In this document: positions 6,928-61,207 of the stretch, piece by piece
Numbering within the stretch: the first letter of the stretch is position 1
Layout: the number at the start of each line of letters is the position of its first letter
Assembly (NCBI RefSeq): GCF_001310085.1
Contig: NZ_CP012643.1
Coordinates: forward strand, 2,077,001 to 2,141,000
DNA length: 64,000 nt
Source: Rufibacter tibetensis
GTDB taxonomy: Bacteria > Bacteroidota > Bacteroidia > Cytophagales > Hymenobacteraceae
Direction of reading: 5' to 3'
Program-made: the position numbers and the translations under genes
The notes under the pieces: generated by a model
What the model saw: only the letters and a program-made list of their open reading frames with translations
What the model was told of the DNA's origin: nothing
Database searches by the model: none

Positions 6928-6968
6928 TGTTTTTAAACGACAGATTCTGATTCTCTAGATATACTCAA

Positions 6969-7085
6969 GTGAAAAGATTAAAAGAGATTTACCACAAATA
7001 CAAAGACTACGGCCTGGTAGATGTGCTTATGTACCTGTCTTTCTTCTTGTTCCTCGCTATTCTGTTTATTTTCTTCCGGGATTAG
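6969..7085 (+). CDS. Small single-pass membrane protein (38 aa, GTG start)
   Basis: An ORF of 38 codons with a GTG start: a basic, Tyr-rich N-terminus (VKRLKEIYHKYKDYGLVDV) followed by one hydrophobic helix (MYLSFFLFLAILFIFF) and a short RD tail, consistent with a single-pass membrane protein. GTG 6969 is the only plausible start because a TGA lies in frame seven codons upstream (6948-6950) with no other start between. It is divergent from recJ and has its own TACCTTGG motif. I believe similar short KRLKEIY-type proteins occur in related bacteria, but cannot check. Function unknown. A palindrome-family element begins at its stop codon. Confidence 0.6.
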   Translation: MKRLKEIYHKYKDYGLVDVLMYLSFFLFLAILFIFFRD

Positions 7086-7120
7086 TTTTAGGGCTGCTTT
7101 GCGGAAATTGCTTTAAAACT
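7084..7120. repeat. Intergenic palindrome family, full copy
   Basis: Arms AGTTTTA / TAAAACT flank the core GGGCTGCTTTGCGGAAATTGC. The left arm overlaps the stop codon of the 38-aa ORF. Confidence 0.6.
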
Positions 7121-8148: not shown

Positions 8149-8209
8149 AAAGCTCTGCTCTGTTTTAAGGCTGATTTTTGGAAAACGCCTGAAAACTGAG
8201 CAGAGCTTT
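8149..8209. repeat. Intergenic palindrome family, best-armed copy; likely bidirectional terminator
   Basis: Perfect 12-bp outer arms AAAGCTCTGCTC / GAGCAGAGCTTT enclose the family core (TGTTTTAAGGCTGATTTTTG, then GAAAACGCCTGAAAACT). It lies between two convergent genes (stops at 8127 and 8213), so it could terminate both transcripts. Confidence 0.75.
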
Positions 8210-10127: not shown

Positions 10128-10140
10128 TGGATTTGTATAA

Positions 10141-10180
10141 AAACAGAAGAGCCGCGCTGGGTGGCGCGGCTCTTCTGTTT
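10141..10180 (-). terminator. Strong terminator after ppiD
   Basis: Perfect 17-bp stem AAACAGAAGAGCCGCGC / GCGCGGCTCTTCTGTTT with loop TGGGTG, 17 bp after the ppiD stop codon. It probably ends the long cluster that starts near 19.4 kb. Confidence 0.9.
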
Positions 10181-10197
10181 TCTTGATCCGGTTTCTC

Positions 10198-24379: not shown

Positions 24380-24413
24380 TTATTGATTCAAACTGTTCCT
24401 CTTAGTTGTGCTG

Positions 24414-24520
24414 CTGGCGCGAGCGTCCCGCTCGTGTCCACACGTATTCCTGATACATCTTGCAAGGTGAACAACAATAGTAATTCTAATGTGCGGACAC
24501 GAGCGGGACGCTCGCGCCAG
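24414..24520. repeat. GC-rich 26-bp inverted repeat element (REPIN/MITE-like)
   Basis: A perfect 26-bp inverted repeat: the left arm (24414-24439) starts CTGGCGCGAGCGTCCCG, the right arm (24495-24520) ends CGGGACGCTCGCGCCAG, with about 55 bp between; pairing continues with one mismatch to 24443/24491. Each arm itself contains GAGCGTCCCGCTC, a smaller palindrome. Its composition is far more GC-rich than the flanks. This two-REP arrangement is that of a REPIN, mobilised elsewhere by a RAYT transposase. It lies between recF and dciA. Confidence 0.8.
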
Positions 24521-24603
24521 CGGATTAATGTTCCTTCCTGCTAAATAAATTTCCTTTACTGCCGTAAAAAGCAGAGAAGTTTCGTATTAGTAGGAGGTGC
24601 TTT

Positions 24604-25540: not shown

Positions 25541-25579
25541 CCGTTTTAGACACTTTTTCCAAAAAGCGCGTAAAAACGG
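25541..25579. repeat. Intergenic palindrome family, full copy
   Basis: Arms CCGTTTT (25541-25547) / AAAACGG (25573-25579) enclose AGACACTTTTTCCAAAAAGC. It ends three bases before the ATG of the thioesterase gene, so it would sit over its ribosome-binding region. Confidence 0.65.
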
Positions 25580-31247: not shown

Positions 31248-31293
31248 AAAGCGTTTTAAGTCTCCTTGTAGAAAAATCGACCTAAAACGCTTT
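31248..31293. repeat. Intergenic palindrome family, full copy
   Basis: Perfect 11-bp arms AAAGCGTTTTA / TAAAACGCTTT around AGTCTCCTTGTAGAAAAATC; 36 bp after the stop codon of the membrane protein gene at 31329, directly next to the 320-bp repeat. Confidence 0.7.
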
Positions 31294-31328: not shown

Positions 31329-31970
31329 TTACGCCGCTGCTACTTCCAAACTCTCCAACTCACAATAGGCTTCTTTCAGCGACTTCGACTGGTCGCCAAA
31401 CATTTTCTTGATGTACCACTTCAGGAAGAAATACCCTAGCACCGCCCCTATCACAAAACCGATGATCAACCGCAAATACATTTGCTCCCAAGGCAGGTTA
31501 GAGATACTGATGCCTTTGGCGAGCTTCAGATAAGCCAACTGCCCGGCGGCCAGACCAATGGGTGCCAAAAGCATGTTCGTCCAAAAATAGAGCTTGGTAA
31601 GGCCGGTGAGCATTTCTATCAGGTTGCCTAAGGTGGCCCGCAGGTTAGCGGTAGTTACGTTCAGACCCTTCATATAAGATAGTCGGGCCCAGAAGTAGCC
31701 CAGAAACGGCAGACATACCACCATTACCACTACACATAGCGCCTGAAATGCCGGGTCTTCCTTAAAGAAAATCGCCCCTGCGCCCGCCACCAGAATAGTA
31801 GAAACCTGCACCGCCAATTCAAAGTAGATGTTCCGCTTGAGGGTGGTGACGGCATTTTCTGTACGGGCTTTTAGCAGGCCTGCAATCTCGTGCTCGGTCA
31901 CCTGGTGGGCGGCAGCGGCTTGGGCAGCATACAGCTTCCAGGTGTCTTTGAGGCTATCTAATTTCATCAT
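31329..31970 (-). CDS. Membrane protein co-encoded with an ECF sigma factor (possible anti-sigma or partner)
   Basis: 213 aa. A soluble N-terminus (MMKLDSLKDTWKLYAAQAAA, then HQVTEHEIAGLLKAR) precedes about four transmembrane helices (50-68, 75-93, 125-150, 165-185) and a basic tail. It overlaps the sigma gene by 17 bp, so the two are co-translated. Position suggests an anti-sigma or regulatory partner, but the classical zinc anti-sigma motif (HxxxCxxC) is absent. I recognise no family. ATG 31970 or 31967 could be the start. Confidence 0.7.
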   Translation of the reverse strand: MMKLDSLKDTWKLYAAQAAAAHQVTEHEIAGLLKARTENAVTTLKRNIYFELAVQVSTILVAGAGAIFFKEDPAFQALCVVVMVVCLPFLGYFWARLSYMKGLNVTTANLRATLGNLIEMLTGLTKLYFWTNMLLAPIGLAAGQLAYLKLAKGISISNLPWEQMYLRLIIGFVIGAVLGYFFLKWYIKKMFGDQSKSLKEAYCELESLEVAAA

Positions 31971-32561: not shown

Positions 32562-32608
32562 AACCCCGTTTGAGTTCTGTTTTTCAAAAACAGAACTCAA
32601 ACGGGGTT
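32562..32608 (-). terminator. 23-bp perfect palindromic terminator after gdhA
   Basis: Left arm begins AACCCCGTTTGAGTTCTG and right arm ends CAGAACTCAAACGGGGTT, 23 bp each with a single central C. It lies 36 bp after the gdhA stop. A palindrome-family fragment (AAACAGCAGCTTAAAAAG) adjoins at 32544-32561. Confidence 0.9.
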
Positions 32609-34165: not shown

Positions 34166-34199
34166 CTTTAAGCGTGCTTTCCGTAAAACGGGCCTAAAG
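34166..34199. repeat. Intergenic palindrome family, core copy (divergent promoter region)
   Basis: CTTTAAGCGTGCTTTCCGTA then AAACGGGCCTAAAG. One of the few copies not 3' of any gene: it lies between the divergent gdhA and M28 starts. Confidence 0.45.
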
Positions 34200-39847: not shown

Positions 39848-39891
39848 TTCTGTTTAGGGGCTACCTTCTAAAAAGTAGCCCCTAAACAGAA
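39848..39891. terminator. Bidirectional terminator between patatin and DUF2807 genes
   Basis: Perfect 17-bp stem TTCTGTTTAGGGGCTAC / GTAGCCCCTAAACAGAA with a 10-nt loop, between convergent genes. A palindrome-family half core (GCTTTCAGAAAAACC) precedes at 39826-39840. Confidence 0.9.
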
Positions 39892-42366: not shown

Positions 42367-42408
42367 ATAGCTTAAAGGCTCTTTTTAGGAAAACATGCTC
42401 AAAGCTAT
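42367..42408. repeat. Intergenic palindrome family, full copy
   Basis: Arms ATAGCTT / AAGCTAT around the core AAAGGCTCTTTTTAGGAAAA; 96 bp after the prenyl synthase stop codon, just upstream of the rhomboid gene. Confidence 0.6.
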
Positions 42409-43602: not shown

Positions 43603-43650
43603 AAAAGCGTTTCCAGCTTCTTTTTGTAAAAGAGACTGAAAAACGCTTTT
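43603..43650. repeat. Intergenic palindrome family, full copy; probable rnr terminator
   Basis: Arms AAAAGCGTTT / AAACGCTTTT around CCAGCTTCTTTTTGTAAAAG; 15 bp after the RNase R stop codon (43666). Confidence 0.7.
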
Positions 43651-43665
43651 CGGTTATTCATGACC

Positions 43666-46140: not shown

Positions 46141-46174
46141 TCTAAGCCTGTTTTTAGGAAAATGAGGTATAAAC
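46141..46174. repeat. Intergenic palindrome family, core copy
   Basis: TCTAAGCCTGTTTTTAGGAA then AATGAGGTATAAAC; 33 bp after the stop codon of the OppDF gene. Confidence 0.5.
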
Positions 46175-48030: not shown

Positions 48031-48265
48031 TAAGCGTTCTGTTACTCAGTATATGTAAAGGATAGATGAGATAAGCGCGCCCTACTATCTATTCCTGTAG
48101 CGATAATTGAAAATCTATGCTCTTCAAAATGCGTATAAACGCATTTCTACCCAAGAGATACCAAAAACTTAAAATTTATTTATAGACACAACTTAAATAA
48201 TTAAACCTAAGTATTAACTATAGAATTTACCCTATATATCCTTCTCCCTGATATTATACTCTTCT
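48031..48265. other. AT-rich divergent intergenic region
   Basis: Divergent between OppDF and the OMP gene. ATGCGTATAAACGCAT at about 48130-48145 is an incomplete small palindrome. Segments 48170-48240 are very AT-rich and presumably hold both promoters. Nothing else seen. Confidence 0.35.
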
Positions 48266-49572: not shown

Positions 49573-49620
49573 CCTGCTGTTTCAGGCTCCTTTTTCTAAA
49601 AAGCAGCTTAAAACAGCAGG
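49573..49620. repeat. Intergenic palindrome family, full copy, between ileS and lspA
   Basis: Perfect 10-bp arms CCTGCTGTTT (49573-49582) / AAACAGCAGG (49611-49620) around CAGGCTCCTTTTTCTAAAAA; 38 bp after the ileS stop codon. Confidence 0.75.
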
Positions 49621-56120: not shown

Positions 56121-56159
56121 ACAAAAAAGGCTTCTGCTAAGTGCAGAAGCCTTTTTTGT
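56121..56159 (-). terminator. Terminator after glyQS
   Basis: Perfect 17-bp stem ACAAAAAAGGCTTCTGC / GCAGAAGCCTTTTTTGT with a 5-nt loop; T-runs on both strands. Confidence 0.9.
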
Positions 56160-56167
56160 AGCTAATC

Positions 56168-56202
56168 GTTTTTAAGCTGTTTTTCAGAAAACAGACAAAA
56201 AT
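56168..56202. repeat. Intergenic palindrome family, core copy
   Basis: GTTTTTAAGCTGTTTTTCAG then AAAACAGACAAAAAT; immediately 3' of the glyQS stop codon (56210), before the hairpin terminator. Confidence 0.55.
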
Positions 56203-59357: not shown

Positions 59358-59374
59358 AATCTACTAAACGAAAA

Positions 59375-59410
59375 GAAAAGAGCCGCTTCAGAAATGAAGT
59401 GGCTCTTTTC
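59375..59410 (+). terminator. Terminator after the Pit gene
   Basis: 16-bp stem GAAAAGAGCCGCTTCA / TGAAGTGGCTCTTTTC (one wobble), loop GAAA, followed by a T-run. Nearly the same hairpin follows the next gene at 60781. Confidence 0.85.
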
Positions 59411-59621
59411 TTTTTAAGGCTTTTCGGCACGGTATTCCCCGTGAATCCTTTGATATTTTTTGTACAGGACACCGGCTCTTTAACAATTATTCTGCTCCCG
59501 CCTTGCTTTTGCCTACCCCAAAGCTACTTACACGTATGTAGCTACAATTGGTGATTTTATGAAGGAAGGCATGTACGTATGTCCTGTGATTTTGAGCTAA
59601 ATCTTACTAAAACATTATTGA

Positions 59622-60780: not shown

Positions 60781-60815
60781 AAAAAGAGCCGCTTCAGATA
60801 CGAGGTGGCTCTTTT
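60781..60815 (+). terminator. Terminator after the Pit-like gene
   Basis: Stem AAAAGAGCCGCTTC / GAGGTGGCTCTTTT with wobble pairs, then a T-rich end; sequence is close to the hairpin after pit. Confidence 0.75.
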
Positions 60816-61207
60816 GCTTTGTAGAGGTATGATTCTTACCTGATGCACTGTTGTGTCTTTTCTGTTGAACTGTTTCCTGATTGCTTTCTGCAAGGTATGG
60901 TCAAAACAATCAAGATTCGTCCTTTAACAAGCCATTTGATCTAATGCAAGCGGATTTAGAACAAGAACCGATCTGCAAAATGGCTTTTGATGAATACAGA
61001 CCTTTTAGAAGACTCTGGAATCGGTAGGCGATCAGAGCTCATTATTTGTCGCCCATTGGTTTGAAGGCTCTAAAAATGGCCTCTGTCAAGCTCTTCTGAT
61101 TAGCTGTTCCACGCAAATTTTCGTGGAACCTGTAAATTGAGCCACGTGAGAATTAAATATTTCAAGGTATACAGGGGACTAGACGGAAATACCGTAGTGA
61201 TTTGAGT

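Follow-up and report, generated by a model that had tools for sequence, protein, structure and literature searches.

The 64,000 nt window analysed here (positions 2,077,001 to 2,141,000 of Rufibacter tibetensis contig NZ_CP012643.1) carries many copies of a dyad-symmetric sequence that is abundant throughout the genus. Alignment of the copies gave the pattern TTT-N8-TTT-N4-AAA-N8-AAA, a 32 bp dyad. Our leading explanation, held with a little less than even confidence, is that the dyad is a genus-specific recognition site on double-stranded DNA that has species dialects, lies mostly at the ends of transcription units and has sometimes been co-opted as a terminator, rather than an RNA structure.

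A hand-written consensus of the core was abandoned after it returned merely 14 matches on both strands, and a weight matrix was needed to recover the copies. At a threshold of at least 15 bits the matrix found 41 copies in the window; 214 were found in 464 kb of this genome (3 when the sequence was reversed), which extrapolates to approximately 2,500 copies per genome. When matches to the pattern with up to two mismatches were counted, overlapping registers included, the window contained 82 against 8.7 expected, and the complete 5.41 Mb genome contained 649 exact matches, compared with 14 when the pattern was reversed. In several genomes each side of the dyad is filled as CYGTTTT-NGGC-CTGTTTT. 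The dyad is 32-46 bp long, occurs at 0.27-0.68 copies per kb and has an information content of 24-55 bits, depending on the genome. The central dinucleotide is self-complementary less often than expected in the 15 genus genomes sampled (0.162 versus 0.298, z -9.6), and this avoidance is less marked in genomes G007 (18/47) and G013 (12/54). A scan of the window gave no Rfam match above the gathering score.

All 16 genomes of the genus that were searched were enriched for the dyad, with 206-1927 exact matches compared with 4-25 in controls. Among 21 genomes from other genera of the same family there was no enrichment in any (0-38 matches; controls 0-29). Judged by one protein encoded in the window, the closest named relative among the matches listed was Rufibacter ruber (88%). 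A 21.7 kb locus of R. ruber holds 14 copies at up to one mismatch, and nine loci from other genera hold between none and three. The search was extended to a sample of 213 genomes from the order that includes this one, with 31 of the 212 others overlapping the earlier genus and family set. Outside the genus, no genome in this sample with more than two matches went beyond 7-fold over its control. Genome G142, from another family of the order, had 97 matches against 17 in controls; several of those listed share a TTTTGGGCAAAA-like sequence and for this reason probably belong to a different repeat. We found no account of the element among the open-licence PMC papers listed for Rufibacter repeats, palindromes and uptake sequences, or for Bacteroidetes and Hymenobacteraceae; the paper listed for Bacteroidetes concerns archaea, and those listed for Hymenobacteraceae do not contain the family name. 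Neither Rufibacter nor Hymenobacter appears in the main text of a 2025 REP survey (PMC12306157).

The original prediction was that the arms of the palindrome differ between copies and pair perfectly within each copy, and seven copies were given in its support. All seven arms are present, each with its exact complement opposite; the GTTTT/AAAAC portion of these arms is family consensus and not a difference between copies. When compared with dinucleotide shuffles, the RNA folds of four copies (8149, 31248, 49573 and 41004) were clearly better (z -5.0 to -6.1; Table 1). The fold of 43603 was weaker, with 4 of 200 shuffles equally good, and those of 25541 and 42367 were not clearly above shuffles. 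Five further window copies were folded; one had z -2.0 and the other four did no better than shuffles. As a general rule the prediction fails. The seven copies were picked out of 41 in the window. With the axis of symmetry fixed, only 4 of the 41 formed at least 8 of the 10 possible outer pairs, and at least 6 of 8 inner pairs were formed in 2.

As a fixed axis misregisters hairpins with an odd centre, including 8149 itself, as well as the shifted copies of G005 (inner z -4.7), pairing was retested with a shifting axis. The null was built by recombining left and right halves between copies within a genome, which keeps the consensus palindrome and removes covariation within copies. Across 15 genomes, at least 16 of about 20 arm pairs were found in 129 of 890 copies, against 31.7 expected. 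Copies with fewer than 14 pairs averaged 9.93 pairs, compared with 10.11 in the null. The strongly paired class made up 10.3% of the 214 copies from this genome and 0.0% of its null, and G012 was the one genome that had no such excess (0.171 versus 0.164). With the axis fixed, 891 copies showed little excess pairing in the fillers (Stouffer 1.8, with G005 misregistered) and a clear excess in the flanking arms (5.8). The family is a mixture in which about 11% of copies are true hairpins and the remainder pair at the null level, and the proposal that a stem is maintained is supported for this minority only. Covariation over 20 orthologous loci was significant in sum (Stouffer z 3.0 for inner and 3.3 for outer pairs), driven mainly by a few loci that include those of 8149, 43603 and 49573. 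Mutual-information z scores were numerically meaningless for nearly invariant columns and were not used.

The strongly paired minority looks like intrinsic terminators, with a stem near a stop codon and often a T-rich arm end. Strongly paired copies (129, at least 16 pairs) were compared with weakly paired copies (679, fewer than 14 pairs), a set of 808 from which copies in the range of 14-15 pairs, and two more close to the ends of their stretches, were left out. At least six T in the ten positions at the arm end were present in 37% of the former and 1% of the latter; the count was made where the detected arm ends, and that point is closer to the core in weakly paired copies. The strongly paired copies also more often had their nearest stop codon at a distance of 20-70 nt (73% versus 44%) and were more often in convergent gaps (34% versus 19%); in this comparison the in-gene label also covers copies that are not in a gap bounded by two called genes. 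A stem followed by a T tract characterises part of the paired minority only, and not the family. Unlike intrinsic terminators, most copies have no stem beyond the consensus, and separate terminator-like hairpins coexist with them: among copy-bearing gaps of 60-600 nt, one was found in 49 of the 115 convergent gaps and in 75 of the 311 tandem ones. Two further terminator-like hairpins in the window, at 59371-59414 and 60782-60820, are 87% identical to one another over 39 nt. A different, GC-rich inverted repeat with 31 nt arms that are 97% complementary and 47 nt apart occupies 24413-24521.

It had also been suggested that the element inserts into, or extends from, pre-existing hairpins. Eleven gaps in which one or more copies are of the hairpin type were compared at orthologous positions (89 genome-gaps), where 28 had core and hairpin, 53 had the core alone and 8 were scored as lacking the core. 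In seven of these eight the longest perfect stem was 6-9 bp. The eighth, at 39848-39891 in the window, has a 17 bp stem and a decayed core, yet still reaches a family score of 32 bits. Hence, the hairpins come and go on a core that stands, which argues against insertion into existing hairpins; extension survives only with the roles swapped, the hairpin growing out of the core. At the 8149 locus, the orthologs in G004, G005, G002 and G014 have different arms that still form 16-18 pairs. The ortholog in G015, with 14 pairs, falls between these and the armless cores of G003 (9 pairs) and G010 (8 pairs).

Table 1. Dyad copies and associated hairpins in the window (z, RNA folding compared with dinucleotide shuffles; bits, score as a family member)
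Position	Feature	Strand	Evidence
1832-1863	Exact core adjoining terminator 1799-1837; gap copy at up to one mismatch in 9/9 genomes	.	
7087-7118	Exact core directly past stop of small ORF	.	24 bits
8149-8209	Core plus outer arms, a hairpin in a convergent gap; terminator-like on either strand	.	23 nt arms 91% complementary, z -6.0
8164-8195	Core of the 8149 locus, 32 bp dyad	.	Exact pattern match, 30 bits
10095-10127	Exact core, up to one mismatch in 11/11 genomes compared; separate terminator 10140-10181	.	
25545-25576	Copy from original prediction, hairpin not above chance	.	Exact match, 11 pairs, z -1.5
31248-31293	Hairpin-like, past stop of minus-strand gene 31329-31970	.	15 pairs, z -5.0
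32562-32608	Copy doubling as perfect hairpin with 23 nt arms	.	
34167-34198	Exact core, non-hairpin	.	z -0.5
39848-39891	Hairpin, core decayed	.	32 bits
40999-41050	Hairpin-type copy	.	17 pairs, z -6.1
42372-42403	Copy from original prediction, hairpin not above chance	.	11 pairs, z 0.2
43603-43651	Terminator-like, conserved outer arms AAAAGCG/CGCTTTT	.	12 pairs, z -2.6
46142-46173	Core with two mismatches, non-hairpin	.	z 0.1
49573-49620	Hairpin-type; position common to 10/10 sister genomes compared	.	16 pairs, z -5.6
56170-56201	Exact core adjoining separate terminator 56121-56159	.	

The copies are mostly intergenic, with a peak 20-60 nt past stop codons. With genes called by a crude hexamer caller, 118 of 891 copies fell inside called genes, though coding sequence makes up 67-82% of the sequence sampled. 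A copy was present in 147 of 194 convergent gaps, in 329 of 510 tandem gaps of at least 100 nt and 45 of 183 shorter ones, and in 70 of 188 divergent gaps (37%). In tandem gaps of at least 120 nt, 154 of 398 copies were centred 20-60 nt past the stop codon. When 30 gaps, with genes taken from an ORF list, were each compared in at least seven genomes, a copy at up to one mismatch was present in at least 70% of genomes in 13 gaps and in at most 20% in 10 gaps, with 7 falling between. A small ORF recognised by eye at about 6966-7085 (MKRLKEIYHKYKDYGLVDVLMYLSFFLFLAILFIFFRD) ends just before the element at 7087, and a similar ORF is found in G006. In the divergent gap 48031-48265, a block acacaacttaaataattaaacctaagtatt that is perhaps a promoter is conserved in most of 10 aligned genomes.

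Conservation is concentrated in the T and A tracts. Orthologous gaps from seven genomes (41 reference copies and 218 comparisons, gaps over 700 nt excluded) had an identity of 0.812 in the tracts, 0.465 in the fillers, 0.459 in the centre and 0.498 in the flanks. These comparisons replaced a first set that was biased because its copies had been chosen by having no more than two core mismatches. TTT and AAA triplets elsewhere in the same gaps had an identity of 0.492, so neither composition nor alignment in general explains the signal in the tracts. The fillers differ between species. The dialect of G012 is CCGTTTTcGGGCTCATTTCC, that of G013 and G007 is CCGTTTTTGGCCTGTTTTC, and in G005 the outer tract is shifted. 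In 8 of 12 gaps, the G012 copy and the orthologous position are no more than 12 nt apart; in the other 4 the positions disagree. Six of the eight position-matched copies are in the G012 dialect and two are not, and none of the orthologs in other genomes has that dialect. Copies in G000 behave like independent sites (standard deviation of pairwise identity 2.38, compared with 2.46 after column shuffling). Near-identical copies are in excess in G012, G013 and G001; in G012, 532 pairs match at 36 or more of 38 positions, against 27 expected. This excess is the chief indication of copying or homogenisation in the lineages of G012, G013 and G001.

The combination of near reverse-complement symmetry with the lack of pairing leads us to infer that the dyad is recognised as double-stranded DNA. 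A putative protein complex with matching symmetry would read four short T/A tracts. Each half-site has two of them, placed 11 bp apart, or about one helical turn, and a spacing of 7 bp separates the inner pair. The tracts are the constrained part and the 8 bp fillers carry the species dialect, which ranges between species from strong to nearly free, implying that the putative reader co-evolves with its sites. The most likely role of such sites would be in chromosome organisation or in marking the boundaries of transcription units. Because the site is palindromic, it could readily gain complementary flanks, and roughly one in nine copies may now also serve as an intrinsic terminator. When 415 tandem copies were oriented by transcription the two halves were nearly alike; 6 of 30 mirrored columns were unequal at P<0.05, uncorrected (smallest P 0.0032), and the differences were small. 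These unequal columns count against a double-stranded site, as do the near-identical copies in G012, G013 and G001, the covariation seen at some orthologs, the real hairpins and the presence of copies in over a third of divergent gaps. So does the information content, as by our own arithmetic about 11 bits would be enough to locate 2,500 sites in a genome of 5.4 Mb, and plain binding sites need less than the dyad holds.

Uptake signals offer an unlikely but serious alternative, in which a receptor would prefer DNA that carries the motif, recombination would drive sites to the dialect in place, and 3' intergenic positions would be tolerated, with some copies becoming terminators. According to PMC1852404, PMC3630211 and PMC2397512, the DUS and USS of Neisseria and Pasteurellaceae likewise have thousand-fold copies, dialects, an intergenic 3' location and co-option as terminators, the last described for Neisseria and Haemophilus (PMC1852404, PMC3630211). 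The dyad shares with them dialects between species, here at fixed positions, its density and the emergence of terminators on standing motifs, and these likenesses give the explanation its weight. Drive would also account for the high information content more easily. However, described uptake signals are words of about 9-11 nt (PMC1852404) and the repeated unit here is a long dyad of spaced T/A tracts; the copy number fits that of a short word with at least 1,000 copies, but the unit does not. In the open-licence PMC literature we found no paper on uptake sequences in Rufibacter.

A REP-like miniature mobile element that spread in the ancestor of the genus and again in some species, most of its copies having since decayed, is improbable. 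The dyad resembles REP sequences and their RAYT transposases in being extragenic, palindromic, abundant and restricted to one genus, and every genus genome searched exceeds the 100 extragenic copies expected of a REP family; the near-identical copies of G012, G013 and G001 would also fit recent spread. Y1 transposase genes (PF01797) occur in 15 of the 16 genus genomes, but also in 18 of the 21 same-family genomes where the dyad is missing, and G007, with its 994 exact copies, yielded none; the transposase is not a clean correlate of the element. At eight transposase loci in the genus, copies at up to one mismatch lay on both sides of four, on one side of two and on neither side of two, always at least 140 bp away, and such flanking copies could reflect ordinary density. 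Among lineage-specific copies, none of four gaps inspected contained a clean insertion; the dialects sit at fixed positions, and the tracts are kept while the fillers drift. Against the REP features given in PMC3733652 and PMC2817692, the dyad lacks preserved complementarity in most copies and has no consistent transposase partner. The GTAG/CGTC end tag is absent from the nearly symmetric consensus of 15 genomes, and stems are not preserved by compensating changes outside the strongly paired minority. As complementarity is not preserved and there is no tag, the dyad does not belong with REP sequences.

That the whole family functions as stem-loops of 3'-UTRs or terminators, with the palindrome kept for base pairing, is very improbable, as the terminator-like minority, the summed ortholog covariation and the location near stop codons are set against remaining copies that pair no better than recombined halves, fillers that evolve as fast as the flanks, oriented tandem copies with no T tract downstream, and four of five further window copies that fold no better than shuffles.

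Returning to the double-stranded DNA site, a more specific account is possible, though we consider it doubtful. A global DNA-binding protein would have arisen in one genus and would mark most ends of transcription units via a four-tract dyad; its drifting specificity would rewrite thousands of sites in place while their positions stay fixed, and the sites would act as a seedbed for new terminator hairpins. The hairpins found on standing cores suggest that a standing palindrome can give rise to a terminator, as opposed to an element entering a terminator. More generally, the family separates palindromes that are due to a hairpin from palindromes that are due to a two-fold DNA reader, and most copies here appear to be of the second kind. 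The site is common to at least 16 genomes, many of which have it at the same positions in different dialects, so co-evolution of site and reader, uptake drive and copying are directly testable in this genus.
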